This document shows positions 1-64,000 of a DNA stretch of 64,000 nucleotides, piece by piece (position 1 is the first letter of the stretch; every line of letters begins with the position of its first letter). The translations under genes were made by a program, and so were the position numbers. The stretch is from Hydractinia symbiolongicarpus. Its lineage: Eukaryota; Cnidaria; Hydrozoa; Anthoathecata; Hydractiniidae. The stretch lies in the NCBI RefSeq assembly GCF_029227915.1, contig NC_079880.1:24056501-24120500 (forward strand), in the 5' to 3' direction. The notes under the pieces were generated by a model, which was given only the letters and a program-made list of their open reading frames with translations, was not told the DNA's origin and did no database searches.

Positions 1-2302
1 GAAAAACTTTCGATTTGAAGACTAGGCTATGATTTTATTGCCTTTACGCACTCCGTTTGTGTTGTTTCGTTGAATTTTGGTCGAAAAGAATATTTTTCAG
101 GAATGAATAGAAATTAATTTAAAGAAAACAATTTTCAATATTATAAACTTATTATCTTCGATACATAAAAAACTCAGTACAAACAAACAATGAGATTTCA
201 ATCATCAGCACGTCCAGACAGCGCAATGTTCAATTTTCTATTATGTGATTCATCTTTGTGTTGATTCCACAAGTAAATAAAAAATTGCAGATACAACGCA
301 AAATGCGTTTGGGACATCAATTTACAAGAGGACTTTATGTTTTGAATATAACTATTAAATTGCTCACAAATGGAAGAATTTATCGCACTTGAAGCAAGAA
401 GACGGTTGTACTTGAAAGCGTTGGTGCATTTGTGCGTATAACCATGAAATACGTCGTGGAAAAACCTTGTTTTTGCAAAAAATCCAGATTCTCGATTTTT
501 GCAATATTCCGAAAGACTGCATGCAAAATCGTAAAAAATGTCGTCAGGAGCGCTGTTGATATGGGTTAATAGCGACGCGGTAGGGTCCTTTCGTCCTTCC
601 CTTCCAGGAATTGTATGGAAGCCGTAGCAATGTCCATGTAAAGGACAAAACCAAAGAAATACGTAGGTTGTTCCTTTTTTCGAAACTGTTGGAAAGCGTT
701 TCTCACATGCGTTGTCTGGTGGGTCATCAAAATTGGCATGGATACGTTCTTTTGTGTCAATAGTGAACTGTCGCATTTTACGAACTTGACAACCATGTGT
801 ATTAAAGTAATATGCGCGTCCATATTTAGCAGGGTTGTAAGTTTTCGGTATAGGTACTGGATCTTCCGGTGGTTCATCATGATAATGTACATTTTTTATA
901 AATGCCACCAGGTATCTAAGTAACAATATAACATCGTTGCTTGGAAGTTCAGTCGATGACGATATAGAGGATGCGAATAACAAGGAAGATAACTCAGGAG
1001 CATAAAACCTCAGTTCGTACAAAAATAATCGTAGGTCGGCGGTTGTTAATTCTTCATCGGTAATCTTTTGAACAAAATCTAACACGTCTTGACAAAAACG
1101 AAATGGCAACACAGTGTCTACTGAAGCGTCGGATGAAAGTAAAAGAAAGAACTTGGCCAATGCATACCGTTCTTTGCTATCCGAATTGGTAGAAATCATT
1201 TTTTGATATGCAGGTCGAGCATACTCAGTTATAAATTCTGTAATGCCTGTCTCAACCACACCAAGGTCGCAATCAATAATCTTTTGGCACTGCTCCTTTA
1301 ACAAATTTCTCGCCTGACTGAAATCACGAGAATCATGGTCGGGGGTATTAAATATAAAGCAACGATTAAGCCGTTTTAATGTTGTCTCCAAAATTTCCCC
1401 ACCCTCAGCATTTTCGATGGGATCAACGAAAGTATTTTTAAAACCCACTCCTAACTTTGTACCGTCACAGGCTAATATTTTACTTTCGCCTCCACACAAC
1501 CTACATTGCTGACGAAATTCAATTTGCATAGCTGAAATCCATGCGAAGAACCAATCAATAAAAACTGGAACTGACATAAACTTTTGGGCACCGTGATTCC
1601 TTCTCCTGTAACTGTTATTCATAACCGTCACGAAACCGCTAAACGTTTGACCACTTGTTTTTACTGCATCAACAAAATCCCAGCCTATTTCATAACCCGC
1701 ACAAGTAGCTGATGAAAGCCTGAATATGGATTCATTCCATCCATCCCATTTACGTTCACAACAATTCTGCAAGCACAAACGCATGAAAACGTTGCACTTC
1801 ACCACTTTCCTGTCCAAATACAATTTAGACTCCGTTGACTTTCCAATAATTCCTTGTGGGAATTCATCTGAAAACCAACCAGCCTAAAGTGACAATTTTC
1901 TAAAGTGACAAGTCTTAGCGATAAGTTCTACATTTTGTTATAAGGATTATTCCCTACACATAATGCATGCACAAAAAAACAAAAAACATTCTATTTACTA
2001 AAGACAGTATACTTTGCCTTATACTAACCTCACATGGGCATGTTCCATTCATATCAGGTACAAAATCGATGTCTTCGTTTTCCTCACTCCAATTATCTCT
2101 TAATTTTAGATTATCTTGCAATCTTGTAGAAAAAGGATCGCCATCTACGACACACTTGCTGGGACATTTAAGATTAAATTGCCACAAACCAGTTGCCTCA
2201 TTGATTACATCTTTCCACTATAATTCAGAGTTATGATTATAAGACATTATATGATATTAAATAATCATATTTAATAGTCAAGCTTCACCTTATTATCTTA
2301 CA

Positions 2303-2378
2303 AATGGTAAGCGACGCTCTAACCACTGAGCTATCTTCATTTCAGAAGAGCTGGATTTGAACCAGCGACCTTCGCTTT
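2303..2378 (-). other. tRNA-like sequence in circularly permuted order
   Basis: On the minus strand the 3' half of a tRNA comes first: anticodon 3' stem AGCGA, AGGTC, then a perfect T-arm GCTGG-TTCAAAT-CCAGC and acceptor strand TCTTCTG. The 5' half follows about one base later: ATGAAGA, TA, D-arm GCTC-AGTGGTTA-GAGC, anticodon 5' stem TCGCT. The anticodon stem would pair 5/5 and the acceptor 5/7 across the permuted halves. The A box therefore lies downstream of the B box, so normal Pol III transcription is not expected. Possible origins are a deletion between tandem tRNA genes, a SINE head, or an inserted circular tRNA intermediate. Confidence 0.5.
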
Positions 2379-4063
2379 GGAAATACAATGTGTAACTTAC
2401 GTAACAGTCGTGTAGTCTAACTTTATTGTCAGGTTCTGTATGGTGGTTAATAATAACTGTAGCGTGGTTTTATGCCGTTAACAAATAAAAGAAAATAAGT
2501 CCACTGATAATACACTTAAATAGATTGGGAATATATAGTTTAAAAGTAAAAAAAAAAAAAATAGATAATAGATAATAGAAAGTACACACCTTATTATCAG
2601 GAAGAAAATTAGCATTATTACTATCTTCATCACTGATATCATCAACGTCATCAGATTCATTATTGGTCAAATAGAAGTCTCGAAATGACACCAAATGAGG
2701 ACATAAGTCAAAAGCAGTGGTTATGTTTTTGATTGACCTTTTTGATCCTTTGTCAATAACACATAACGAATTTTTGCATTGAACAACTTTTCTATTTGTT
2801 CCAGACACTTTGAAAAGAGATACAATTGCAGCAGAATCTTCATGGGTGATCGAGAATTTGCGAACATTTAATTTAGCAGGAAGTTCCTCAACAACTGTTT
2901 CTGAGCACTTTTAGCCATCATTAATAACTGACATATTCACAAGGCTGACATCAGCACTCACAGGCTCTGGAATATGATCAGAAGATGGGAGAAGTGAAAC
3001 AACACTGGCAAGCAATCGCACATGTAAACAAGAAACACCCAGCCACCTAACATCAAATCTTTCTGGAGCTTCAACACAGGTTTGAGATACAGAAAATATT
3101 TTGCAATTGCAATAATAGGTTGGACCAGTACTTGTGGTAGTTGAAAATACATGAACATATTCAAAATGCTACAAAATATAAATAGTATAAAGTTACAAAA
3201 CATGACTAAAGGTTGTTGAACAGCTGTAGAACCAATAACCTAAAAATAATTAAAAAGTCAAAAAATATATACAAACCATAAATTCACCAGTGTTACAATC
3301 GTAATCATTCACGACAACAACTTTGTAGCTGATTTAACTCTCCATTTGAAGGTGCCATAGTTGAACAACTGTCCACAAAAATACTGATACAACGATTCAC
3401 TGGAGGAAGCTACATTTTGAAGTTGTATACTCTCCATAATATCAACCTGTATACTAGAGTCAGAGGCATCTTCTTCATCACCATCACTCTCTTCTGCATT
3501 CTTCCTGTTGTTTCTCTTTGAAATCAGGTGGAATTTCCTTTTTCTTGTTGTACTTGGCAATTTTTTATTTTTATAATAAGGTATTTCTACTATGTTACCA
3601 AGAATGCAATTTAAAACAGCAATCACTACTTCGCTAGCTTCTTCAGAACCTCTGAAATTACATGCCTATAAATATGAAAATAAAAATAAAATTGTTTAAA
3701 AAATCCCAGTTATTCAAACTTGGAGCACCATGTATATGCTGCTAACCTGAAGAATTCTGTTTCTTGGAGATGCTGGATATCTTCTACAGCTTGTTGAGAA
3801 CTTTTGAACATACTTTACCTCTACTTGCTTTATCTCATCACTACACCATACCCATTTATGAAAGTTAGGTATTGAAGAAATATAAAAAAACTGAGACTCC
3901 AAGGATAGCTCATGGTGAATCATTGGTAGTTTAAATGACACAAGTTCAGTTGATTGAACTTTGTTGGCACGGTAGGTCAATAATAGGTTTTCCCACAAAG
4001 ACGGTTCTTGATCACAAACCATGTACCTGTTATACATAACATTTAAAATAAATAAAAAAATAG

Positions 4064-5035: not shown

Positions 5036-5885
5036 TATTATAATGAAAATCAACTATTTTTGTTTGAATATAATATATTCAAACAAAATTATCAGTTCGT
5101 TTCCTCACACATTCTTAGGACTTTATATTAATTGAAATAAATTAGAAGACATCAATCTCACTGGATAATGGTTTTAAGAAGAAATTCAGTGTAAAAGGAC
5201 CTCTCTTCACCTAATCCCAGCATCTTCTTTTTCTGCCACGCAAATGCCAAAGCCAAAAAGCTTACTACTGAAAAGTAAACAAATTATGTCACAATAGAAT
5301 CCATCTATGCGGTCCTTCTTTTTTGCCTGCTATTTTTTTGCCTGGATACATGCACGTAGCTACAATAATCTGTAAATTTGCTCCTTAACTTTTAGATTAC
5401 AACAGTAGCTTTAACCTTTCCCACAGTGATGATTGGCTAATAAAAAAACTATAGTTAGTTTGTAGGAGGATTAAGGCTCTGCAAGCCTAGCATGTAGCAT
5501 GGTCTAGCATCACACGCTCTCTAGCTATCATCATCATCATCATTCTCGGTTAACATCCGTTTTCCATGCTAGCTCTAGATATAGTTAGCTAGCTACATAG
5601 CAACCTTAAAAAGTGCAGAAAAGAGGAAAAACAATGCAGCTACTTATATCTGTACAAATTATTAAAAAACAGTTTAGCAGAAAGAAAAAGCAAACCAAAG
5701 CAAACAGAAAACAGGCCGATGAAGAACCGTTGCTTGGCTCGTTGCTTTCGCTTTCCGTACCCGAACCTGCTGGAAGCATCAAAAAATGCTAACGCAGCAT
5801 TGGCCTGCAACTGACCAATAGTATTACAATATTTTATGTGGTCTGAAAAGTGAATGTTAACGTCCTCTGATTTGACTTGATTTAG
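5036..5885. other. Non-coding spacer between KDZ gene and Harbinger element
   Basis: No convincing coding sequence on either strand. Contains a short (CAT)n run at 5527-5543 followed by a TCGGTTAACATCCG stretch, which resembles the simple-repeat tail of a LINE/RTE-type insertion, and several TAGCTAGC-rich patches. Confidence 0.5.
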
Positions 5886-14320: not shown

Positions 14321-15663
14321 CTATTGTCCGTATACTTGATTCCATTGCCAATGCACCTGACCTATACCTTGAAAATAATCACTGAAAGAATTTCGAATAT
14401 TTTCTGCGCGTGTGCTAAAGTTTCTTGATTTTGTTCCTTCCATCGGGGACAGACTTGATAGGTTGTTAAAAATATTATCTTTGATTTCCGGTCCCTCCGC
14501 GTTTGTGTACGTTTGCATAGACATAGTACACAGCATATTATGTAGCGCACAAGTAGCTAACGTTAGTTTTACAGCAGATTCGGGCAAAACATTTAATTTT
14601 GCAGTGAGGCAGCGAAACCGATTTACAAGTATTCCAAAAGCGTTTTCACTTGTTCTTCTTGCACGTGATAAACGATAGTTGAATATGCGCTTTGACTCAG
14701 TAAGTCCTTTCTGTGCGTAAGGTTTCATGCAATACTCAGTTAAGGGAAAAGCATCATCAGCAACTAGAACGTATGGCAAGAGTGGCTGGTCACACTCAGG
14801 GTTAAGGAAGGAATCATCAATTCCAGATATGTTTGGCAGTTTTCTCCTTTCTGGTAAATCTATGCTGTTTGTAGATAATCCTCTGAAAAATTCACACCGC
14901 CTGAAAACTCCACCGTCGCTCAGACGTCCCTGGCAGCCGATATCGACAAAAATAAATCGATAACGCGCATCAATGATACCTAGTAAAACTAAACTGAAAA
15001 AACCTTTGTAGTTGTAGTATGTTGAACCGCTAAGCTTAGGATGGTACAGAGCAATATGTTTCCATCCATTGCCCCAATGCAATTTGGAAATTGCCACATC
15101 GTTTCGAATTCAGATGCAATTTCAAGCCAGTCGTCTTTGTTTTCGGGGAACTTGAGGAAATCATCTTTTAGTGTATCATATAATGCTTGACAAACCTGAG
15201 GAATAAATGTGGCAATGGTTGAAATACCAACAGAATAGTGATGATGTAAGCTAGTAAAATTCTCCCCAGTAGCGAGAAAGCGCAAAGTTATTGTCAGCTT
15301 CAGCTCCAAAGGTTTCCGTAAATGCGTTGTCTTCTTCGTTAATTTACTTCTGACTTTCTCAAGTAAAAGCTAAACAAAAGGATTGTTTTAGATCAAACTC
15401 AGAATTATTTCACATGAATATCAAGTTAAAAATTATATTCACCTCATATATGTCTGGGCTCATTCGCAGGTATTTGCGGAAACTCTCTTCGTCATACAAA
15501 CGTAGTTCTTGCACTAAGTTATCGTAAACACCGATCAATTTTCGTTTTTTCATCCACTCCTTCACTCAAATTCTGCGCGTAACCTTAGGTTTGGAAAAGT
15601 TTGTCGGAAGTAAAGTTGTAGCAATAATAATCGCAGCAACCGCTTTTCTCTGTTCCTCAGACA
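14321..15663 (-). pseudogene. PIF/Harbinger transposase (Harbinger-1)
   Basis: Begins at MSEEQRKAV (15663). The first exon contains an in-frame TGA after TRRI (expected Trp) and ends at GTGAAT near 15443; the second carries the DDE_Tnp_4 core: CIGAMDG (Asp), YVLVADDAFPL (Asp) and RARRTSENAFGIL (Glu). A one-base deletion just after AMDG (about 15057) shifts the frame so the two halves lie in different frames. The C-terminus ends in VHWQWNQVYGQ at 14321. The transposase excises and inserts the element at TWA sites together with the Myb-like protein. Dead copy. Confidence 0.85.
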
Positions 15664-16898: not shown

Positions 16899-19075
16899 CT
16901 ATTATTATTATTATTATTAAACAATATTTATACAGGATTTTTTACACTTCAGTAAAATGAATTACTGCTATCATCGTGTGTCCTGTCAGTAAAAATACAT
17001 AAAAGAAAGAAAAATATAAGCAAAAACTATTACTACTAAATAACCACTCATGAGTTAGCTAAGAAATTAATATAAAACGCATGTACGTACCAAGAAAAAG
17101 GAAAAAGAAAAAAAAAGAATAATGTGAAACTAGAATGCGCAAAAGTTAGAAACAGAAGCTACTTAAATAATTACTAAAAACATATAAAACATATTTTAAA
17201 AGCGAATATTTACATAAAATGTTGATAAACTAATTTTTGGAACTGAAATAAGTTATCGCAACAACGTATTTTTAATGGTAAGTCATTGTATAATGCTGCA
17301 CCAAGATATTTGAAGGATCTTTTTCCGAACTCTAATTTTATACGTGATATTTTCACTAACATATTTCGATTCCGTGTGTTAATTGAATGCTCGTTGATAA
17401 CAAAATAATTATTGAAATTTTCGCAGACAGTGCTCGTCAGACAGCTTTTTACCAAAATGCATGCCCGTCCTTTCATCTTTCCTTCAATACTCCCAATCGT
17501 ATTTTTTCCTCCAACTATTTGTCTGGCTCGATTTTCTATTGATTGTAACTTTTTTCGTTGGGTCATCGTTAATTTTAAATTTAAAAGAGAACTATACAAC
17601 AAAATGGGTTCAATTACCATCTGATAGATTTTATATGCAGCTTCAAAACTCAGAAATGGTCGCATTTTTCTAAGAAGGTTCAATCTTCCGGCTGCTTTCT
17701 TATATGACTTCTCGAAATTATCAACCAGGGTTAGTGACGAATCCAGTTCGTTTGCCAAATATATGTAAGACGTGAATGATGAATAGGTTGACCCTGCATT
17801 GCCAATTGGATTGTATTTTTGGTATTTTTACGGGATAATCTTTTAGATGTTCCAAATAGCACAGTTTCTGTTTTTCCTTTCTTTAGATTCAGTATGAGTT
17901 CGTTATCGTTCAAATAAGTGGATACGTTTTCTAATTCATCGTTCAATGTTGTTTCTATTATATAGGGGTCGGCATTTGCAACATAGATGACGGTATCGTC
18001 AGCAAATTGAATACAGTTACTTTTCTCAAGGTGTTCCGAGAAGTCATTAAAAAATATCAAAAATAGTATAGGACCAAGTATCAATCCTTGCGGCACTCCA
18101 CTTACAACAATAAAACTTGCTGATGTTCGATTGCCAACTTCAACAACTTGTGATCGGTTAAAAAGATAATCTGTAAACCACAACAATTCTACATTTTCAA
18201 CACCGTATGATGAAAGTTTTCTTAAGACTACATCGTGACTGATCGTATCGAACGCTTTACTTAAATCCAGTAACAGCGCTCCAACTAACTTTCCGTTCTC
18301 GGCAGCTTGTCTTACTTCGTCAACAAGTAGTGTTGTTGCAAGATGTGTTGAACGTTTAGCTCTATAGCCAAATTGGGAGTCATTTAGTAATTTCTCATTT
18401 TCTAAAAATTCCATTAATTGTGTGTGTACTGCTTTTTCCAATAATTTAGAGAGTATTGGCAACACTGAAATTGGACGATAATTTTCAGGTTTGTTTGTGT
18501 CTCCTAATTTAAAAAGTGGGACGATTTTTGCTTGTTTCCATGCGTTCTGTACTGGAGCGTAAAGACTGGTTAATAATGTGATGTAACGGAACAATTAAAT
18601 GTTGCGCACAATCTTTAAGCATTCCAGGAGGGAGTTCATCAAGCCCAGTGGATTTCTTTCTCTTTAATTTCTTTTTAAGAAAATCCTTAATAAAAACTTT
18701 AGACACATAATGAAAATTAAAAGATTTTCTAGTTCTGGAGCAAATGTGATTTGACGGTTTCCAGATAAAGTTCTTCAATTTAAATGCGGATGACTTCAGA
18801 TTATTTACGACTGTTGAAAAGTAATCACGGAAGGCATTGGCGCGAGTTTGATTATCTTTCTCGTTATTAGACGCATTTTTTGTGTTAGCCTTTGTCGGAA
18901 ATATAGTTTTCACTGCTTTCCAGAAAGCTTTGGGATTTGTGCGGTTTTCGTCTATTAAGTTCTTGTGATGTTTAGCCTTAGCGTTTTTTTGCATATTGTT
19001 GCATTTATTTCTTAAGTCCTTATATACCTGCCCTTGGTTAAAGTTCTTTTCATCTTTCAAATGTGTTGTGTCCTT
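16899..19075 (-). pseudogene. 5'-truncated LINE with reverse transcriptase
   Basis: Minus-strand RT domain pieces lie in three frames: 19060-18509 (YRP-upstream region, KKLKRKKSTGLDELPPGM), 18594-17731 (ENYRPISVLPILSKLLEK, SKAFDTISHDV, GVPQGLILGP, catalytic FADDT) and 17758-17210 (post-RT thumb region with YSSLLNLKLTMTQRKKLQ). The AP endonuclease is absent, so the element is 5' truncated, and at least two frameshifts separate the pieces. The 3' end is a (TAA)n tract at 16900-16920, typical of CR1/L2-type elements. The clade is inferred. Confidence 0.85.
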
Positions 19076-19245
19076 TTTATTTTTTATATTTTTTTTAATT
19101 AATTCCTTGTAATTCCTTGTAAGAAGAATGCGCTTTTGGAGGCATTTTCTCTAGAGGAGTACAACCTCTAACTTATTTCCCAAGACCTAACAGGTTCAGT
19201 TCATCATTGCAGTGGCTTGCCACCTCTTTGTAAATTATTTGCTTA
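19071..19245 (+). repeat. Dispersed hairpin repeat, copy 1
   Basis: Shares about 170 bp with 29494-29661. Core: CTAGAGG-AGTACAA-CCTCTA stem, an ACCT-AAC-AGGT stem, CATCATTGC, and the hairpin GTGG-CTTG-CCAC (19212-19223). Abuts the RLE-USP retroelement relic. Confidence 0.8.
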
Positions 19246-21060
19246 CCAGATTTAAAAGCTGGAAATTGGAAAGTTAGTGAGGCAGTTCTTTCGGCGGATA
19301 GTCAGCTCAATTTCAAAAGAATTTTAGGTTTGTATCACACTGGTCGAGCTGCCTTAAGCCTCTTAGACCACAAAAATATAACACCGAAAGCTTGTTTCCA
19401 AAATCATTGAAGAAAATGAAGAAGATATTTACCATGCCAGAGCTGTACAGTTGCATTCGCAAGGCAATTGGACGAAATGGTGCTCTTATGTGAAAAATGA
19501 TTTTAGAGAACAATTCTTTAACTGCTACAATGTCTAACTTCCTTTTGTATAGGGGCAACCTACGACACCCTTCCCTCTCCAACCAATCTTGTGAGGTGGG
19601 GAATTAAGAAAGACAAAAGTTGCATTCTGTGCAAGAAACCATCCTCAAATGTCTCTCACATATTGGGTGCCTGTAGGACCTCCCTTACGCAGGGTAGATA
19701 CACATACCGTCATGACTCGGTTTTAATAGTTTTGGTTAAGGCATTAAAATAGTTTTTGGTATCATATGAACCTCTTAAGGTTTCCAAGTGCAACAAAATT
19801 AATTTCATTCCGGCCGGTCAATCACCATCTAAGAAGAGGCATACAAAGTGTCCAGGCCATCTTCACCTTGCTTCCGATTGGAAAATACTGTCAGATTTAG
19901 ATTCCGTTTTAGTTGTTCCACCATACATTGCAATAAGACAACTACGCCCAGACGTGTTATTAATATCCAGTTCTTCCAAAACTGTAGTTATGTTAGAACT
20001 GACTTGTCCATGTGAAGAGAACACGGAATATTGGCACAAACGAAAGCTTAGCAAATATTCTTCACTTTGTTATGCTATGAAAAACAATGGATGGATCGTG
20101 CATTTCTTTGCCATTGAGGTGGGTACAAGGGGTTTCTGTTCAGAATCAGTAAGGACCTGTTTTCGTCGCCTTGGTTTCCCTAACAAGCCTTTACGTTCCC
20201 TATTAAAATCCCTAACTTTTACCTCCATGAGTGCTTCTTTTTACATCTGGATGTCTCGAAATTCTACCACTTGGGTTGAGCCTGAAAAGGCCCCAATCAT
20301 TCCTAAAATTTCTTCTGTTACAAATATGGAATGTAAGAAATCAAAACCCCCTGAGAAGTCTTCCGCAAGTCACACAAAATCTTGTAAAATCAAAAAACCC
20401 GAAAAACTTGCTACAAGGTCTTCCAAAACAACAGTCGCATTGCCATCTAACCCTGATTTTAGGAATAGCAGTCTAAAAAACTTGGGAAACACATGTTATG
20501 CAAACTCCATCTTACAATGTTTTTATAACCTTCCAAAAGTTAAAGAAGCCATTTCTGTCAGCAAAACAACCTCAAAGTTAGGGAGAAGCATTTGTAGGTG
20601 TTCTTCAAAGTTTGGCTGTTTCTAGAAGTCCAGTTGATCCCTCCCATTTTTTGCGTGCTATGAAACATCATATCTCAGCTGCGAAGGGAAGTGCATTTAA
20701 TATCTTTGGTCAGCAAGACGTCCCTGAGGTTCTTGAATATCTCCTACCTGGTCTGTCATTAAACTTTCGATTTCTTGGAAGTCTTTTTAGTATTGGCATC
20801 AAGCAACAACCACTTGCAATTCATGTCATATTACCAGCTCCTCAGAAGTTATAGCACCATGCATCCAACTTTCTCTGCACCCTAAGTTACAATCTTCCTT
20901 AGATAATTTCTTTGAAAGCGAGGAGTTGTCAGACACCAATGCCTACTTCTTCCATGTTTGCAACGCTCATCAAACTGCTCTAGTTGAAAAAAAAGTAGTG
21001 TCGTGCGGTTCTAAACAAGAAGGAATAGTATCTTATTCGTGTTAAGCATGGAAAAAGCAT
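19246..21060 (+). pseudogene. Retroelement 3' end: CCHC + restriction-like endonuclease + ubiquitin-specific protease (copy 1)
   Basis: Pieces in order: a post-RT segment (QLNFKRILGL ... ARAVQLHSQGNWTKW); a CCHC finger CILCKKPSSNVSHILGAC (C-x2-C-x8-H-x4-C); then a PD-(D/E)XK nuclease with RPD, 14 residues, ELTCPCEEN, followed by KRKLSKY and FAIEVGTRGFCSES. A Lys/Ser-rich linker leads to a C19 deubiquitinase: Cys box LGNTCYANSILQC (about 20480-20520), GQQDVPEVLEYL, and a zinc-ribbon region. Breaks: a 4-base loss near 19502, a stop near 19750, a one-base insertion near 20590 and loss of phase after 20850. The nuclease layout matches R2-like RLE retrotransposons; joining to a USP is unusual. Nearly identical to the copy at 62555. 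Confidence 0.8.
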
Positions 21061-24690: not shown

Positions 24691-25225
24691 ATGATGTTTT
24701 CTTTTGTGATTTGTTATTAAAGCAATTTTTAGTAGAGTTTAAGTTTGAGAATAGGTTCTAAATTCAGTTTGTCATTAAAAAAAATCAATAGTCAAGTTCA
24801 CTGTCATTTGACTCATGTTCAGAGAAATCTGAAAATTCAGGACACTCTAGATTCGTTTTATCAACGATTTCCATGCTATCGTCACATTCTTTGTGAACAT
24901 CTGGAACTTCAATATCGTGAAACACATCATTTTTTTATATTATATATTTTTGACATATGCATTTTTTCCATTTGTGTTTGTTCTGTAACCAGTCCGTTTA
25001 TGTTGTTAGCTCTGTCTTGTGTCGTATTGTTTGTGATTGAAGGATTGTTTTTTCTCTTTAAGATTTTCTCAGTGAATAGTTATAGGTCCAAGTTGGACAG
25101 TACTCATGCTTGTAATAAGCAAGAAAGTGTATTCAGCACCTTCTTCTGGGAGCCTAATCCCAATTTTATTTACATCCACCGTCCCTGTAGACAAGATACT
25201 TCAGTGCAGCTTGCTGTATTGTAAA

Positions 25226-27152
25226 CCTTTTTCATCGAGTATTAGCATAAGTTCCTTGGAAGTATCTGTACCCAGATTGAGATTATTTTGTATATATTCC
25301 ATTGAATTTATGTATGGTAAATGCAAAACAATTTCATTTATACAACTCTTTGATAACCCAGTCATCACTTCTCCAGGCACTAGTAACATTGGTTTGGAAC
25401 ATATAGTTTCATGGTACTCAACTAGCATATCTTTGACAAGTTGTTTATCATCTTCTGAAACTTCACGTATAATCTTTTTACCAAATAATTTGGATTCTTT
25501 TTCTTCTGTTGCAATTTCAAAGGGAAACAACTGACATTCATCAAACTCACATTTCCTTGCACAAAATGAACAACAGTTATGGCCAGGTGACAAAGGCATT
25601 ACACTGTTTCCGTCTTCATTGAATGGAGTGTACAGTGATGTCCTCAAGCAACTCTTTTCATGGCTCTGAATGTAGGATACCATAGAATTATTTACATTTC
25701 CTCTGCCCTGTGGAAAGACATATAATACTGCATGGCAAAGTCCTTCAATGTTCCGTCGTGCTCGGCCAACCTGTTGGCAATAATCAGCGGTGTCATATGC
25801 TGGACCATAATGAACAACAAATTTAACGTTCTTCATATTAACACCACAACCAAGTGAACTTGTTGCAACTACCAACCGAATAGTACCTGTGTCTGATGTC
25901 AGGGCTGATAAAACATTCGATTTTTGGGCTTCCAATGTTCCAGAGTGAAATAAGGCAATTAAGTCGGTAGATTTCATACCATTTCCCAAAGTTTCTCGTT
26001 CAATCATCTTACGAACGTGGTAGTAAACAAAACCACACAAAGTCACTGATCGACAGTAAATTATTACTTTATGTGTATCAGAAACCTCTGATAAAAAAGT
26101 GTCAACAATCCACTTCAGACATTGGACATTTTCCCTACTGGAAATATTCAAAACACACAATCGTATATTTTTTCTGTCACTACATACTGATATTACTCTC
26201 AGTTTTTTTGATAATCCGCAACTTCCGATAACAAGCTGGGTCAAATCAACATCCACAGTGGCACTGAGGGCAAGAATAGGTAAATCTTGACGACAGATAG
26301 ACCGCATTTCACTGATTCTACCAAATGCTTCTCTGAATGGCTTGTCCTCATTGCTCATTGGTGAGGCACCCCTAAAATAAGGATATATAAACATAAAGCT
26401 ATAAAATAAAACTTGGTTCAAAAAATGGAAAACGTTTTCATCTTTTACAGAGAGTGGCAGAAAATGAGCCTGCATCTGCATGTACAGTAAAGTTCATGCT
26501 GTTTTGCATTAAACTACACTCTCTTTTCTCTCGCTAAAAACTAAAGATGCATAGAGGAATATCATGGCGTCAGATTTAGTTATATCTAGCATCATATTAT
26601 GATGGAGGATGTTATTATACAAAACATGCATTCTGAAAATGCTTTCTTTGCAGCTTTGGGGAAGCAATAATAAAAATACCATACCATGACACTTTGTGTA
26701 CTTCATCCACAACAAGGCAAACAGCATTGTCCAGTACAAATTTAGATGAGAGAAACTGTCTCCACCTGGCATTATTAAGCCAAGATTCAGGTGTGCCAAG
26801 CAAAATATTGAAATTGCCAGATATAATATCCCCATAATCATCGCAATCTAGTTTGGAAGCCTTTAATCCTAACGCACTTAACGAATTTGCAGATGAAATT
26901 TGATCTTGGATTAAAGAAATAAGAGGAGAAACGACTAAAATAAGTGGTGAAGGTGCTATATTTAACTCCAAACACACACTTGGTAAAAGTTGGTAGATTA
27001 AACTTTTACCATAACACGTTGGAAAATTACACAAGGTATCGACTCCATAAAAAAATATTTACCACAGCTTCTAATTGTTTGGGTTTAATTGAAAAAGAAA
27101 GTGGAACTAAAATGTTTGAGATGACTTTTGAAACATCCGAAACAGTCGCCAT
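25226..27152 (-). pseudogene. RecQ-like DNA helicase
   Basis: Starts at ATG 27152 (MATVSDVSKVISNIL) with an IKPKQLEAV Q-motif; a one-base shift in the T7 run near 27050 precedes Walker A, which reads PTCYGKS instead of PTGxGKS. Then VVSPLISLIQDQ (Ia), LVVDEVHK (DEVH, motif II), an intron (donor near 26677, acceptor 26372-26373, TTTTAG), LALSATV (III), VIIYCRS (IV), VVATSSLGCGVNMKNV (V), QQVGRARR (VI) and a Cys cluster CCSFCARKCEFDEC like the RecQ zinc-binding region. RecQ helicases unwind 3'-5' at recombination intermediates. The Gly-to-Cys change in Walker A would impair ATP binding. Convergent with the DUF6589 gene, tail to tail. Confidence 0.82.
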
Positions 27153-31030: not shown

Positions 31031-31440
31031 TCAGCACTGAGCCGACGCCCCTCCTCTGCACCATTCTGCTCTGGTGCTGGTACTGGTGGTGGTGGCTGTT
31101 GTTGTTGTTGATGTTGTTGAGGTGGTGGTGGGGTGGTGGGGTGGTGCTGCTGCTGGTGGTCCTGGCAGCTGACCCAATTGTTGCAATTGCTGCTCTTGCA
31201 GGTGCTGTTGTTGTTGCAGCTGCATGAGCTGATTACATGACGGCCCCACTTTTAACCCCAGTCCATTAGGGAGGCCAAGTTTGCTCACTTTGTATACAGG
31301 GTTAACGATCCTGATGTACCCACAGTTATTGTTATAAGAAGCTTTGCACTTTACCCCAGTAACTTCAGGCTGGTCCTGACATAGGGCTGGTCCCAAGCGT
31401 CAATCACCTGTGTAAGGCTGAGTGTTGGGATCCCATAACA
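31031..31440 (-). other. Low-complexity Gln/Thr/Ser-rich reading frame
   Basis: A minus-strand frame has CAG and CAA runs (Gln), then Pro/Ala/His, then Thr/Ser repeats driven by GGT/TGG/TTG triplets at 31060-31230. The N-terminal part (CKASYNNNCGYIRIVNP) is not repetitive and could be real. I do not recognise it; likely a fragment. Confidence 0.3.
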
Positions 31441-31589
31441 CATGTGGAAAGCTACGGCCAGGTTCACAAGTCCTGGCGCATGGGTGGTTGTCTGCTCTTT
31501 TTTATAGTTTTGTATTTATAGTTTTATATTTATTTGTTTCTTTCTATGTCGTATAGTAATTTGTAACTATCAGTAGGTGTTTGTTATGT

Positions 31590-39600: not shown

Positions 39601-40402
39601 TGCTTGCACAACTTTGTAAGTGAATTAAATTACAAAGCGATGAGAGGTCCCTAACAATAAGGAAAGGCCGTAATTGGAGTTACAAAGTGAGACGTTATAC
39701 CACCTAAAGACACCTATGGGTATAGGAAATTGGTTTCCGAAACATCAAAGGAAATTGAAGAGGAAAGTTACCTTTCCAGAGCATTGTAGCTTCAAGTCCA
39801 AGGCCAGTGGACTAGGTGGGAGAACTATGTTAAATTCGATCTTTCCTGGAAAGACACACTAGCTTAAACCGCCAAACCTTTTAATCTTTCTGTCCCCAGT
39901 CTACATATGATGTCTTACCATCCCCAAACAATCTAAAATGTTGGAAAATAATTACTGAATCATCTTGTTTTTTGTGCCGCAAAAAAATCTGCACCTCTGC
40001 TCACATTCTGGGTGCATGTAAAATAGCTCTAGTTCAGGGAAGATATACGTTTAGGCACGATTCGGTGCTAGTGCACTTGGTTGACACTTTAAAACAATTC
40101 CTGTCAGCACTTCCACTTACCATCTCTAGGAAATGTAATTCTATGACTTTTCTTAAGGCAGGTGCTTATGTTTGTCCCAAATCAAAGACAGAGGTTACAG
40201 GTATATTGCATCTCACCAACGATTGGATAGTTGTTGCCGACACTAGTCCAAACTTTGTTTTTCCAGGGCACATTGCTGTGTCACAACTAAAGGCCCGTTT
40301 CCACTCTGGGAAATTTTCCGTGGACAGGAAAAATTTCCACGGAATTTTTTCTACCGGCATTTCCACAACGCGGGAAAATCAGAAAACGAAATCGAAAATA
40401 AA

Positions 40403-43400
40403 AATGGCTGCAATAAATAGACGCTTGCTTTTACTAATTTTGCTGCGAAAAAGATTATCTAGAGCAAGGCAAAGCAAGCAATGTTGGGTTCGTAAAATAT
40501 TTTCCGAACGTACTTTCAAAGGTGAATATCATGTCCTCATTCAAGAAATGAAATTGTTTGACCATGAGTACTTTTTTAAACAATTTCGCATGTCACCAAC
40601 CCGGTTTGAGCATTTGTTGTCACTGATTGCTCCAATTATTACGAAACTAGTCGATTAGGCCCGTGGAAAAATCCACTTAGGCAGAAAAACAATTGAAAAG
40701 TTCTGTCATTTGAATTGTGATGACATCAGCAAATATTTCAGTATATTGAATATGCCTTTTACTAAAAAAAATAATCTGAAAATGCATCAAAAGAAAGTAT
40801 ATAAGTCATAATTTAACAAAAAAGTTCTTAAAATCTAACACAAAGTATCAAATGTCAAATTGCATGAAATCCTCCCAACAAAACTTCAGACAAAATATGA
40901 AAAACAATGGCATGCAAGGTGTAAAATCTAGTTAGTAGAAAGTTACAACATTGACAGTCACAACCCAGACAGTTACGACAACAATAATAATAATGTCAGA
41001 AATAACACATATCTCAAATATGTATACATCTTATTATGTGATTATGTTGAAAACCTTCAATATTTTAATCCGAAGTGTCGAAAAGAAAGGCTTGCAACAG
41101 TAAGCACAGATCTATGAAATAAGTTCTTTACGCATTTTAAACATTGTCTTTTCCCGAAATGCTTATACAACAATACAACCTGAACAATATCAAAAAGCCA
41201 AACTTAAACAAACACAAAACACCTAAAAACAAAAAGTTAAACTTTGAAAAATCATTTATTCGGTTGCATACCATCCTCTCCCGCAAAAATATACACAAAA
41301 TGTAAAAATTAACCGGTTAACAAAACAATTTTTTGTCTAATGATCCCTACTGACTTTACCAAACATTTTAACCTGAAATGTCGAAAAAGCAATGAGCAAG
41401 GAGTAAATTTCAAATCAACAAAAATCATTATTTTGAAAACATTGTATATATATATTTTCCTTCCTTACAAAAGTTTACAATAAATGTAGAACACAAAGGT
41501 TTATGAGGAGCAAATCAAAATATGAACAAAAATCAGTTCAATTGGCATGTTCTGTATTGTCTTCAGCCATAAAATCTTCCACGAAATTGATATGAAACCC
41601 ATCAAATTCAACTCAGAAAAAGCAGTCATTTAAGTGCATACAAAAATACAACTTGTAGAATATCAAATTATTATTTTTAGTATATATATAATTGCATATG
41701 GTCCTCCCTCACAACAGTTAAATTTTTGCACTAAATTTGCAACACAAAATACAAATTCTAAATAATTCCTATGGTTTTCCTCAAAAGTTTAATCAAAATA
41801 TAAAAGATGAGAAGTGAACGACAAAATCAAAGTTTGCAGAATTTAATTATTTTGGTATATATATGTCTATTGATATATGCCCTTTATAACAATATTTCAA
41901 TCCAAAATGTGAAAAAGAAAAACAGTTTGCAATAAAATCAGTTATTCTGATGACATTGCATACACTTTTTCTCCACAAAAGTGTAAAAAAAGAATGGTTG
42001 TAGGAAATACTTCTGATTCAACAAAAATCAGTATTTGCATCTTGTACTCATTAAATATTAACCAAAATTTCAAAAAACTGTGATTTAGAACGCATTAAAT
42101 TTATAAATAGAGAGGGATCAGTCATTTCGGTATGTTGTACAGAGTCCTGCCCGGTAAGAATTTATACGAAATATAAAAAAAACACAAGTTTTTTCGGTGT
42201 TGTACTCCCTCAAAAAAGTTGAAACTTTTCTTAATTGAGACAAAATGCCATAAACAAACACATTTTAGTCAGAACATCTAGAACAACAAAAATCACTACA
42301 CTTAAGGTACCAGAATTACTACATGTTAAATAAAAATCGTTTCGTCATATTGCATGTAACCGATGTATATAAGTTTAGTTACACAAAATGTGAAAAATAC
42401 ATTATTTGCATACACAAATTGTGAAAAATACATTATTTGCTTAAAAACAGTCCTTAAACTCTTCTTAAATATTATGTAATACTTTTTTAAAAGTTGTTGT
42501 GGCTTGTTAATTTAAGCTTAAAATGTCAATTAAAATAAGTTACAGTCACATTCTTAGCAAAGACCACTAAGATTAGCTTACATGTAAAAAGCAACATAAA
42601 ACTGAAGCTAACATAAGGTAGCTACAGCAGCTAATAACTGGTCACTTAAATATAAACTGGAGACTTAGCTAGGTATAAAGAACATGGCTACATATTTATA
42701 AATTCCTAGCTACCTAGCTAGTTGTTGTTGGTGTGGTTGATGCTAGCTAGCTAACAAACATGTCTCGCATCAATAATATCATCAAAACTTTAAAAAACAT
42801 AAACAAACCTTACTGAAACCTTTCTATACTTCATTTATATACCATGCCCCTTTTTAAATGCTTTTGTAAAGATTTATTTTGAAGGCAAGAGAAGACAAAT
42901 GCTTAAAAAGGACAGCCATCTTTTTTGCAAACACAATTTCCGTTACTTTGTGCTAGAACTTCATTTAACAAACCACACACAACTCGCGGCTTTTCACGAC
43001 AAAGAAGACATATTTTTTTCGGCAACATCAAAGGAAAATGACGATATCAACTTTGCCTGTTACAGACACACAGACACACTCTCCGTATTATTATAAGAGA
43101 TGTTCATTGCGCAGGGAGGCAATTGGTCCGTCAGAAAGACTTTGTTTAACATTACGCTATCTAGTGACTAGTGATTCTCAAGTATCCATTGCATGTAGTT
43201 ATCGCGTAAGTCCGACATCAATTACTCGCATAGTTGCAGAAACGTGCGAAGCTCTTTGGACGATGTTATTGAGAGAAGGCTACTTGAAATGTCCTACAAC
43301 GAGTTAAGAGTGGAAAAAAATATCCCAAAAGTTCGAAGAATTATGGAACTTTCCAAACTGCGTATGTGCAATTGATGGTAAACACGTTATGATGCAAGCA

Positions 43401-44123
43401 CCTGCATCATCTGGCTCTACTTTTTTTTAATTATAAAAAGCATCACAGCATAGATCTGTTAGCTGTATGTAATGCCACTTACGAATTTACGCTAGTGGAC
43501 GTAGGTCAGTCAGGACGGAATAGCGATGGAGGAGTGTTTTTAAATAGTGACCTTGGAACGGCAATAAACGATCAAACGTTGGGCATTCCTAATGCAAGAA
43601 TACTTCGTGGAACTCAAGAGAATTTCCCATATGTTTTTGTGGGCGATGAAGCATTTCCCCTCAAGCGATTTATGATAAAACCATATGCTAGAAGCAATCT
43701 TAATAGCAAAGAAAGAATATGTAACTACCGCTTTTCTCGAGCACGGAGGGTTATAGAGAATTGTTTTGGAATATGCGCTTTAAGATTTCGAATCTTCCGT
43801 CGACCAATAATAAAAAAATAGAGACTGTTGTGAAAATAACAAAAGCTGTGGTGGCTCTCCATAATTATTTAATGAAACACGAATCGGCTAGTTATTGCCC
43901 CCCAGGCTACCCTGATGTAGAGGCGACAAATGGTATAACACCTGGAGAATGGCGAAGTGAAACAACAGATTGTAATGGCTTATTACCTATCGCTAACCAA
44001 GGTTCTAATAATTTTAGTAGGTCAGCAGCACAGATACGAGATCAATTTTGCACATACTTTAATTCTCCGGCTGGTTCATTAAGTTGGCAATGGGATATAG
44101 TAAATACAACTGCAGATATGTGA
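40403..44123 (+). pseudogene. Harbinger-2 transposase, split by a Helentron derivative
   Basis: The N-terminal part (40403-40646) starts MAAINRRLLLLILLRKRLS and reads to IAPIITK. After the insertion the frame resumes at 43101 with CSLRREAIGPSERLCLTLRY, then CVCAIDGKHV (Asp), YVFVGDEAFPL (Asp) and ARRVIENCFGI (Glu), ending SLSWQWDIVNTTADM. A stop (TAA) sits at 43305 before EWKKISQKFEELW, a frameshift follows GSTFF near 43427, and another occurs near 43815. The reading phase is preserved across the insertion, so it landed in a coding exon. Confidence 0.85.
40647..43100 (+). mobile_element. Non-autonomous Helentron (HINE) inserted in Harbinger-2 transposase
   Basis: The 5' end CTAGTCGATTAGGCCCGTGG with hairpin GTGG-AAAAAT-CCAC; the 3' end has ACAGACACACAGACACACT, then CCGTATTATTATAAGAGA. 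Both resemble the ends of the mini-elements at 50594-50829. The 2.45-kb interior is AT-rich and shows no gene, with a 30-bp tandem duplication (GTGAAAAATACATTATTTGC) at 42380-42440. Confidence 0.75.
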
Positions 44124-44175
44124 TAACTTTGTAATATATACATAATAAGTCTATATATATTGTATATGATGTAAC

Positions 44176-45018
44176 TTATTCTTCCTCTGTCAAGTTATAA
44201 AACAATTCACTTATCTTCATTTTCGCATATTGTTGTTTTCGGTTTGATAACTCCTTCAAAGTATGTACAAAACTAAGTAAAAACGAAGTTTCAGAATCGT
44301 TTTCAGCTTTTGAAGGAGCAACTTCCTTATTGTTGTCATCACTTAATGCTTTTATTAACAAAGCATCAACACTCCTTTGTAAATCTGCTTTTTTTTGGCA
44401 GATTTCCTTCTTAATGGCTCAACGTTCTCCTGCAAATCATCGTCAACAGTTTGACTTTCAATAGGTATGGGTACATTTGATGCAGTTTTTCGAAACAGTG
44501 AAACGTCTTTCAGGAAATCCAGCTCAGCAAAAAAATTGCAAGTGGGCAGCTTTTTGTTGCCTGCCCCTGAACGTGTCATCTTCTCTCTTCGTTGAAGCAC
44601 TTCCGATAGTTGTCACGCAACTTCTCCCATTCCTTTTTCAGATATTCCACTTAAATGAAATAAATTTCTTTAAATATATATAGCTACTATTTGCAAAAAT
44701 AAAACCCACGAAAAAATTAAGAAATATTAATTCGTGGAAATTTAAAAGTACATGTATGGCTAGACATCTAAAACTGAAAAATATTTTTTAGTTTTGTACA
44801 AACTAAGCAAAAAAGGTAGCTAGTAGCTTACCATCAATGTCTACCAGGGATCATCACAGCAGAACGAACAGGATATCGCACACGTTCTGCGGTGTTCTTA
44901 GTTGTCCAATGCTACAAATTCTCTGTTGTCGCTTCATATGCTCAAAAAATAACTTGTTTCTTATAATCATTTCGTCTTCCCTTGAAGTTTCATCACTACT
45001 AGTGTTGTTTGCCATTTT
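44176..45018 (-). pseudogene. Harbinger-2 MADF/Myb-SANT-like partner protein
   Basis: Starts at 45018 (MANNTSSDETSREDEM), a first exon to about 44831 that contains stops near its end. The later part has YLKKEWEKLRDNYRKCFNEE, a MADF hallmark, then after a frameshift near 44575 TRSGAGNKKLPTCNFFAELD and a C-terminal helical segment (SFVHTLKELSNRKQQYAKMK). The DNA-binding partner of Harbinger transposase, convergent with it. Decayed. Confidence 0.65.
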
Positions 45019-45971
45019 GTTGTTTGTTTACTCTACATCCAGCAATTTCAGCTACCATTTTTGTCCAATTTAAGTCGATTTGATTGGTTGAAAATATTTT
45101 TTCCGCTGTAAAGAAAAAAAAAGTTGAAAATTTTCAACTTTTATTTTTGTTCCAACTTTTCCAGCGGCAAAAAAGAACCACCTCTGTTTTGATATACTAC
45201 GCATGTGCAATTCGGAAAATTTTTTTTTCCGAGGAAAATTTTCCTGAGTGGAAACGGGCCTTAAGACCTGATATAGTTATATTTTCAAATAAGCTTAAAC
45301 GAGTTATAATTATCGAACTCACTTGCCCTTGCGAGGAAAATGCAAACTATTGGCACTCCACCAAAGTCACTAAATATTCCTGCTTGGTTAACGTAATTCT
45401 GTCCAGTGGTTGGCAAGTTGATTTCTTTGCTGTAGAAGTAGGGGCAAGAGGTTATTGCGCGAGAACAACCATGGCGTGTCTGAAAAGGCTGGGTTTTTCC
45501 AACAAAATGGCATATTCCACCGCAACAAACCTTCGTAAAATCAGTATGACAGCTTCTTTCTGTGTATGAATTGCTCGGGGGTCAAGAGACACACAAGGCC
45601 ATTTCTGTCTGAATTCTTATCGAAAAAAGCAAATAAAACAAAGGAAAACATGTAGAGTGTGAGTAAATATCAAATAATACTGAATAGAACCAAGAAAAGA
45701 GAAATATTTACATCATAAACGGTACTGATGAGGTCATAACTTTTACCGTAGATGGAGAAGTGAAATTTCGTAAAAATTTTCAATTAAGGGCTATTATCAA
45801 CCATTGCGGCAACTTAAATAATGGTCACTACACAACCATAGCCTTCGACCAAATGCTTCACAGGTGGATACATTGCAACAATAATTTTCTTGTGATGACC
45901 GCCTTATTAACAGTCACGAGTCATATGTTTTCTTTTTAGAAGAGCTGAGGTAAGAATATTTTAACCAGAAT

Positions 45972-46150
45972 GAGTCAGCAGGGGGGCCTCGCTACACTCA
46001 GTCTTGTTTTTGGAGAGTGACGGTTTCACTTATTACCCCAGTCAAAATAAAAGCAAAATCAAATAAAAATTAAGTTAGCAAGGGGGTTTGATCATACTAC
46101 GTCTTGTCATTGGAGAGTGACGACTCCACTTATTACCCCAGTCAAAGAAT
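45972..46150. repeat. Imperfect tandem duplication, about 100-bp period
   Basis: GTCAGCAGGGGGGCCTCGCT... and GTTAGCAAGGGGGTTTGATC... each lead to GTCTTG, TGGAGAGTGACG and CACTTATTACCCCAGTCAAA. Confidence 0.8.
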
Positions 46151-62554: not shown

Positions 62555-64000
62555 ACATGTGAAAAATGATTTATCTTGGAGAACAATTCTTTCACTGCCA
62601 CGATGTCTAACTTCCTTTTGTATAGGCGCAACCTACGACACCCTTCCCTCTCCAACCAATCTTGTGAGGTGGGGAATTGAGAAAGACAAAAGTTGCATTC
62701 TGTGCAAGAAACCATCCTCAAATGTCTCTCACATATTGGGTGCCTGTAGGACCTCCGGCCGGTCATCCACCATCTAAGAAGAGGCATACAAAGTGTCCAG
62801 GCCATCTTCACCTTGCTTCCGATTGGAAAATACTGTCAGATTTAGATTCCGTATTAGTTGTTCCACCATACATTGCAATAACACAACTACGCCCAGACGT
62901 GTTAATAATATCCAGTTCTTCCAAAACTGTAATTATGTTAGAACTGACTTGTCCATGTGAAGAGAACGCGGAATATTGGCACAAACGAAAGCTTAACAAA
63001 TATTCTTCACTTTGTTATGCTATGAAAAACAATGGATGGATCGTGCATTTCTTTGCCATTGAGGTGGGTGCAAGGGGTTTCTGTTCAGAATCAGTAGGGA
63101 CCTGTTTTCGTCGCCTTGGTTTCCCTAACAAGCCTTTACGTTCCCTATTAAAATCCCTAACTTTTTCCTCCATGAGTGCTTCTTTTTACATCTGGATGTC
63201 TCGAAATTCTACCACTTGGGTTGAGCCTGGAAAGGACCCAATCATTCCTGAAATTTCTTCTGTTACAAATATGGAATGTAAGAAATCAAAACCCCCTGAG
63301 AAATCTTCCGCAAGTCACACAAAATCTTGTAAAATCAAAAAACCCGAAAAACTTGCTACAAGGTCTTCCAAAACAACAGTCGCACTGCCATCTAACCTTG
63401 ATTTTAGGAATAGCGGTCTAAAAAACTTGGGAAACACATGTTATGCAAACATTACAATGTTTTTATAACCTCCAAAAGTTAAAGAAGTCATTTCTGTCAG
63501 CAAAACAACCTCAAAGTTAGGCGAAGCATTTGTAGGTGTTCTTCAAAGTTTGGCTGTTTCTAGAAGTCCAGTTGATCCCTCCCATTTTTTGCGTGCTATG
63601 AAACATCATATCTCACCTGCGAAAGGAAGTGCATTTAATATCTTTGCTCAGCACGACGTCCCCGAGGTTCTTGAATATCTCCTACCTGTTCTGTCATTAA
63701 ACTTTCCATTTCTTGGAAGTCTTTTTAGTATTGGCATCAAGACATCAACCACTTGCAATTCATGTCATATTACCAGCTCCTCAGAAGTTATAGCACCATG
63801 CATCCAACTCTCTCTGCACCCTACGTTACAATCTTCCTTAGATAATTTCTTTGAAAGCGAGGAGTTGTCAGACACCAATGCCTTCTGCCATGTTTGCAAC
63901 ACTCATCAAACTGCTCTAGTTGAAAAAGAGGTAGTGTCATGCGGTTCCCATCTCATTTTACAGCTAAAACGTTTTGCCAATGCCAACGGCCTTGTGTTAA
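62555..64000 (+). pseudogene. Retroelement 3' end: CCHC + RLE + USP (copy 3, runs off the window)
   Basis: Starts VKNDLSWRTILSLPRCLTSF and reads intact through the CCHC finger (CILCKKPSSNVSHILGAC). A deletion of about 130 bp relative to copy 1 at 62755 removes the finger-to-nuclease linker. The nuclease is intact (RPD, 14 residues, ELTCPCEEN). The USP Cys box is damaged by a 5-base loss right after GNTCYAN (63450), but further on the frame is better than in copy 1: LGEAFVGVLQSLAVS, HDVPEVLEYLLP, a zinc ribbon (CNSCHI ... CHVCNTH) and HLILQLKRF (63950-63980), the LKRF box of USPs. Only a few percent different from copy 1 by eye. Confidence 0.82.

Follow-up and report, generated by a model that had tools for sequence, protein, structure and literature searches.

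The element in the window

The stretch analysed here (the window) comprises 64,000 nucleotides of the genome of the hydrozoan Hydractinia symbiolongicarpus (contig NC_079880.1, positions 24,056,501 to 24,120,500 of the forward strand) and contains interrupted copies of a retroelement in which a CCHC finger and an R2-like restriction-like endonuclease (RLE) are followed by a ubiquitin-specific protease (USP) of peptidase family C19. This order, proposed in the initial annotation of the window, is borne out in copy A, where the RLE and the Cys box of the USP lie in one open frame (19753-20625) whose residues 241-275 match the Pfam UCH profile above its curated cut-off (E 5.3e-7), as does the intact open reading frame (ORF) of locus L009 elsewhere in the genome. 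The copies and fragments of the element are the following (RT, reverse transcriptase; UTR, untranslated region).

19240..21011 (+): copy A, 5'-truncated, frameshifted and RT-less, with linker, CCHC, RLE and the N-terminal two thirds of the USP
19753..20625 (+): open frame with the RLE and the USP Cys box together (ORF list; Pfam UCH)
19945..20010 (+): RLE catalytic stretch RPD-(14)-E, ELTCP (read from the sequence)
20476..20520 (+): USP Cys box (KNLGNTCYANSILQC; read from the sequence)
20582..20851 (+): middle part of the USP in a second frame (UCH E 0.0099, alone under the cut-off)
20705..20728 (+): QQD box, in a frame other than that of the Cys box
20791..21011 (+): zinc-ribbon part of the USP in a third frame (tblastn to copy B; first CxxC at 20815)
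24927..25236 (+): 3'-terminal 310 bp of a 5'-truncated copy of the young L009 subfamily (blastn, 99.0% to unit 5059-5368)
31245..31496 (+): piece of the 3' UTR, from related subfamilies, that includes the conserved structured RNA motif (blastn, 81-88%; alignment)
39620..40292 (+): copy C, L009-like first part covering thumb, CCHC and pre-RLE (tblastn, 68-69%)
45260..45584 (+): copy C, L009-like second part with the RLE (tblastn, 76%)
45735..46099 (+): 3' fragment distinct from copy C, belonging to the window family and carrying GHYTT, the USP His box, at 45823-45837 (blastn, 92% to L033)
62556..64000 (+): copy B, CCHC/RLE/USP, frameshifted, 95-96% identical to copy A

Copy A, which is 94-96% identical (blastn) to the near full-length family member L034, stops at 21011 within the USP; the L009 ORF matches positions 19246-20592 (tblastn, E 3.6e-84), the match of the L017 ORF extends to 21009, and the zinc-ribbon part taken alone matched no Pfam family. 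Copy B adds HLILQLKRF at 63949-63975, and its USP continues past the end of the window to the His box (L033:1-363; 2.6 kb beyond the window end). The initial annotation had counted three copies with the same order: this holds for copies A and B, whereas the third is a juxtaposition of fragments of two subfamilies, the RLE at 45260-45584 having 76% protein identity to the L009 subfamily versus 48% to copy A. Copy C is moreover split by an insert of about 4.95 kb (40293-45260), probably a DNA transposon, whose ends form an inverted repeat (GGCCCGTTTCCACTC). The Cys and QQD boxes, the zinc ribbon, HLILQLKRF and GHYTT noted earlier are all present in the window, but no single copy there is complete, the frames being broken and a whole USP occurring in none. 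L034, which matches the window copies at 94-96%, is itself broken and part of its Cys box is missing; since its alignment spans residues 31-1421 of the L009 ORF, the window family shares the L009 architecture.

Directly upstream of copy A, on the opposite strand, 17210-19150 (-) holds fragments of another non-LTR (long terminal repeat) reverse transcriptase with an FADDT box, which we take to be jockey/RTE-like.

Full-length copies in the genome

The genome of H. symbiolongicarpus, a cnidarian as the initial annotation had supposed, is organised in 15 chromosome pairs and consists for 50% of repeats, about 60% of which are unclassified, according to the available part of its description (PMC11067881). 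In the assembly searched (480.9 Mb, 76 contigs) the UCH profile gave at least 150 six-frame matches (149 of 1015 candidates scored), some of which are host genes, such as L001, and 11 ten-kb loci were selected from them for long frames. An uninterrupted ORF of 1422-1426 amino acids with RT, CCHC, RLE and USP, the full-length frame that had been looked for, is present in 8 of the 11 (six of 1426, one of 1423 and one of 1422 residues), the other three being shorter or broken. In L009 the Pfam matches are RVT_1 at 339-609 (8.1e-16), zf-RVT at 828-892 (E 5.3e-5, under its cut-off) and UCH at 1137-1423 (E 3.7e-32, 112.3 bits against a cut-off of 23.9), and the USP read from this sequence measures about 300 residues behind the RLE. 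A 290-residue piece of copy A, from the RLE to the USP Cys box, has at least 141 genome matches at 51-100% identity (135 of 877 candidates scored), several of which are pieces of one copy. It is virtually certain that RT, RLE and USP are fused in one polypeptide, and the element belongs to a type of mobile element that is widespread and has been little described.

The USP domain

In 74 full-length USP domains, a sample biased to conserved cases as it was found through similarity to the same regions, the catalytic Cys and His, the Asp of the QQD box, the Asp following the third catalytic position and three of the four zinc Cys occur in 74/74; the first zinc Cys is found in 72/74 and Asn occupies the oxyanion position in 67/74. 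The third catalytic residue is Asn in 58, Asp in 10 and Ser in 6, and the domain ends 0-10 residues from the C-terminus. By sequence, the USP part of L009 is closest in the PDB to USP8, USP15 and USP2, and a profile of five Hydractinia USPs reaches USP8 at 4e-38. The predicted structure has the palm, thumb and fingers of the USP fold, and the linker between RLE and USP is predicted to be disordered. The domain resembles cellular USPs (USP2, USP8, USP15, USP21, USP46) in fold, sequence and Cys, QQD, zinc-ribbon and His boxes, whereas these are stand-alone host enzymes; the PDB proteins named are not in the USP tree discussed below. Residues and predicted fold make it very likely that the domain is a catalytically competent deubiquitinase.

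Retrotransposon features and class assignment

The catalytic DD of the RT is seen in every aligned row that reaches this box, and in a 45-row alignment (P0001 numbering) the RLE residues P577, D578, E593, K609 and Y613 and the CCHC residues C468, C471, H480 and C485 are invariant. R2 proteins are the closest PDB relatives of the RT part by sequence (E 6e-20 to 3e-19) and also come first by Foldseek E-value. There are no LTRs; copies have a common 3' end and some are 5'-truncated (L018, window 24927-25236), and in the L009 subfamily all eight 3' ends bordered by other DNA lie within 2 bp of one another. By homology, integration would proceed by target-primed reverse transcription as in R2.

Like R2, L009 combines in a single ORF an RT with thumb, a CCHC finger and a C-terminal RLE. 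The R2 protein stops behind the RLE, whereas L009 continues into the USP and inserts at unrelated sites: eight L009-subfamily copies have eight different flanks (not compared with 28S), and single-site insertion was not seen. N-terminal zinc fingers or Myb, in which L009 also departs from R2, gave no Pfam match there at E 0.1, while the distant relative P0054 carries C2H2 fingers. The varied sites and the N-terminus of L009 speak against the R2 clade proper. Assignment to NeSL was set aside on the N-terminal Ulp1 (PF02902) of its nematode families, which has no match at E 0.1 in L009 or L017, and a Penelope-like element is ruled out by the RLE and by the absence of a GIY-YIG nuclease match at E 0.1 in L009; the head-to-tail arrangement described below is the sole likeness to Penelope-like elements. 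Overall, an RLE-type (R2-like) non-LTR retrotransposon with a C-terminal USP is probably the best explanation.

Relatives and phylogeny

Homologue searches returned 70 proteins with the CCHC-RLE-USP part, 255 with the RLE-USP ORF (best 120 listed) and 131 with the RT part (best 120 listed), many from environmental sequence; among the named matches listed, Hydractinia is the only USP-bearing animal. Architectures were examined for 132 proteins (P0001-P0064, P0190-P0257), the survey leaving aside P0065-P0070, the six weakest of the CCHC-RLE-USP search and without precomputed RVT_1, and P0071-P0189, the 119 proteins first returned with the RLE-USP ORF. The 132 comprise 80 RT-RLE-USP, one RLE-USP, 47 RT-RLE and four RT alone; thus the order RT-RLE-USP is found in 80 of 81 USP-bearing proteins, the remaining one having no RT match, and the full-length copies continue beyond the nuclease; copies ending there would have undone the proposed fusion. 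Scans with alignment A1 of viral contigs (31 stretches) and of prokaryote genome contigs (64 stretches) gave pattern matches and no relative; the 'Pseudomonadales MAG' (metagenome-assembled genome) proteins P0025 and P0210 are, for this reason, probably eukaryotic contigs inside a bin.

A quick RT tree with 111 rows unites all 62 USP rows in one clade (Shimodaira-Hasegawa-like approximate likelihood ratio test, SH-aLRT, 96). A careful tree of 93 rows, from which 14 rows with unknown ends and four long or odd rows had been dropped, places them in a smallest common clade with support 99/96 that includes 13 USP-less rows, 12 of which form one clade (100/99), the other being the single contig P0199. 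The USP character requires three changes on this tree, compatible with a single gain followed by two losses, and one capture at the base of a large clade is quite likely; as the USP is missing from 13 rows of this clade, it appears dispensable in some lineages. RT and USP distances correlate in 56 proteins (r 0.79, 0/999 permutations; 0.84 for RT and RLE). In the USP tree one branch with SH-aLRT 92 separates the 62 retroelement USPs from five host-type USPs, a thin sampling of hosts, so that the domain does not group with host genes. Five RLE relatives bearing Ulp1 (Peptidase_C48), P0249 and P0251-P0254, stand outside the USP clade in the RT tree, and therefore the capture of a ubiquitin/SUMO-type protease took place on more than one occasion around this lineage; in P0249, the only one scanned, Ulp1 precedes the RT.

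A recombinant origin of L015, suggested by RT scores, was dropped as its RT is 97% identical to that of L017. Ratios of non-synonymous to synonymous rates (dN/dS) were not usable within subfamilies, the copies being too young, nor between them, where synonymous sites are saturated; the L009-L017 RLE row (922 codons, merged matches) was not used. Recent mobility and long retention of the element are both evident.

Insertion anatomy and the 3' UTR

The unit of the young L009 subfamily measures 5368 bp (L009 2689-8056), lies between unrelated flanks, begins with TTATTGTTGACC and finishes with CCTTTTTCATC, without poly(A). At the loci retrieved, every complete unit has the 3' piece of a second unit directly in front of it, in head-to-tail orientation (L009:2209-8056, L010, L011, L012, L013, L014, L016 and L019); the piece is about 480, 2450, 291, 1035, 208, 112 and 2026 bp long in seven loci and is a full unit in L010. 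These repeats vary in length and are not LTRs. L018 is truncated within the unit. The exact 27-base word of the 5' end occurs 11 times in the genome, a search that misses diverged ends, and the word spanning the 3'|5' junction occurs at the same 11 places; none of these 11 insertions opens directly with the 5' end of its unit. The arrangement suggests that the template for reverse transcription is multimeric or circular. Jumping between templates is described for R2 enzymes in the available parts of PMC12222951 and PMC12203849; template jumping alone would be insufficient, because starts at the own 5' end are expected too. In eight copies no convincing target-site duplication was found, the longest shared word being 7 bp.

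A 3' UTR stretch of about 76 bases retains 82-90% identity between subfamilies whose USPs are 45-55% identical. It folds, and in five sequences both partners differ at 5 of the 26 pairs; we infer that it is probably the recognition element of the RT. It was identified by conservation at four places.

L009:7648-7731: structured 3' UTR RNA stretch
L017:7798-7873: structured 3' UTR RNA stretch
L006:982-1070 (-): structured 3' UTR RNA stretch
window:31394-31486: structured 3' UTR RNA stretch

A diverged copy of the motif in a neighbouring fragment (L009:9710-9767) matches Rfam Twister-P5 at E 0.012, under the gathering score. A Twister ribozyme is not claimed for the element, this match lying outside the L009 unit and none being present in 11 further loci; the U presumed to mark the cleavage site is missing from the other aligned copies.

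Other features of the window

14321..15369 (-): open frames presumably of a Harbinger/HARBI1-type DDE transposase
25201..26493 (-): open frame of 430 amino acids, which we assume to resemble a RecQ-type helicase
2291..2390 (-): Rfam YrlA (Y RNA-like) match under the threshold, 33.5 of 69 bits and E 0.0019, with tRNA-like halves, perhaps a tRNA-derived repeat

The Rfam scan of the window gave three matches, all under the gathering score.

Proposed role and alternative explanations

The element encodes a single polypeptide with RT, CCHC finger, PD-(D/E)xK nuclease, flexible linker and a complete C-terminal USP-type (C19) deubiquitinase. RT and RLE would perform target-primed reverse transcription, as their homology to R2 indicates, while the USP, active to judge from residues and fold, would be tethered to the ribonucleoprotein (RNP) and strip ubiquitin from the element's own protein or RNP, which would thereby escape proteasomal turnover. 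The USP would have been captured once in the ancestor of the clade and then retained under selection. Several observations weigh against this picture: the whole-chain Foldseek match to R2Tg is loose (TM-score 0.32-0.36, root-mean-square deviation 13 A); 13 rows of the USP clade are without USP; the USP evolves faster than the RT (mean identity over the 56 proteins 0.29 against 0.52, with 0.45 for the RLE); the RT and the USP of P0046 group with different relatives in the two trees, possibly through an exchange of the USP domain between elements; the third catalytic position is Ser in 6/74 domains; and the ratio of non-synonymous to synonymous differences (pN/pS), with pS saturated, does no more than bound selection.

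That a decayed retroelement simply lies by chance beside a host USP gene or pseudogene would agree with the broken frames of the window, where no copy has a whole USP, but it is refuted by the same order in intact single ORFs, in 81/81 USP-bearing relatives examined (80 with an RT match) and in the many genome matches of the RLE-Cys box piece, and can practically be dismissed. A catalytically idle domain, kept as a ubiquitin-binding or scaffold module, is improbable: the Ser variants and the complete loss of the domain in some relatives would suit it, but Cys, His and the neighbouring Asp persist in 74/74 despite the low mean identity of the USP, and mere binding would not preserve the nucleophile. 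Still less credible is a maturation protease cutting the element's own polyprotein, for which the terminal position in a long polyprotein and the disordered linker could be cited. USPs require folded ubiquitin in the substrate, and the only such trace, in the thumb region, is an Apg12-like match below the threshold; polyprotein cleavage is unlikely because the L009 ORF has no Gly-Gly (GG) and ubiquitin-like GG tails occur in 3/81 proteins.

The choice among substrates is less settled. Both roles put forward in the initial annotation, stabilising the proteins of the element and countering restriction through ubiquitin, are plausible. Protection of the own RNP from ubiquitin-dependent turnover is tentatively favoured. 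The next candidate, doubtful though it is, places the USP at the integration site, where it would act on histones, PCNA or repair proteins that carry ubiquitin and so ease cleavage or the repair of the insertion: the USP directly adjoins the nuclease and USP1/USP7/USP21-type enzymes act on chromatin and repair substrates, but the sequence gives no pointer to the substrate. A role at the integration site was suggested earlier for the Ulp1/OTU domains of Ginger1 elements, in the accessible text of PMC2836005. Blocking of another host ubiquitin defence ranks below it as unlikely. A long shot of similar rank joins two proposals, namely that the USP of this long interspersed nuclear element (LINE) is a counter-defence against ubiquitin-based restriction, like viral deubiquitinases, and that the element amplifies from multimeric or circular RNA. 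If this were true, an ancient R2-like LINE lineage would carry its own deubiquitinase, whose catalytic core stays fixed while the rest changes rapidly, and amplification from such RNA would explain full-length insertions as head-to-tail partial dimers.

Comparison with known systems and significance

Proteases of related type are known in other mobile elements. NeSL and Utopia-1_TSP are RLE elements with an Ulp1 protease, as given in the available part of PMC4640811; they share with the present element a captured ubiquitin/SUMO-type cysteine protease, but theirs is Ulp1 (C48), N-terminal of the RT, whereas here a USP (C19) lies C-terminal of the RLE in another clade. The consulted portion of PMC2836005 describes Ginger1 DNA transposons with a C-terminal OTU or Ulp1, likewise a deubiquitinase-type domain at the end of a mobile-element protein, in which a DDE transposase and an OTU/Ulp1 fold stand in place of RLE and USP. 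The same portion names Trichomonas vaginalis XP_001314237.1 (transposase_11 + Peptidase C19), where C19 is also fused to a mobile-element enzyme, in this case a DNA transposase in a single named protein and not a retroelement. Among the titles and abstract beginnings listed in a literature search, with subscription journals largely outside it and without Repbase, there was no report of a USP in a LINE. Mobile elements with Ulp1 and OTU proteases were known before, and what is apparently new is a full USP across a large retrotransposon lineage.

NCBI gives host-gene names to pieces of the retroelement, as in P0071 ('USP50'), P0074 ('USP51-like') and P0115 ('USP2-like'), which align over 84-100% of the RLE-USP query; P0107 and P0152 are perhaps also retroelement pieces annotated as host deubiquitinases. 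Such labels inflate the USP gene counts of Hydractinia. The element offers a directly testable enzyme and an example from nature of an R2-type integration enzyme joined to a deubiquitinase, and the retention of the USP across a large lineage implies that ubiquitin marks a front line in the contest of LINEs with their hosts.
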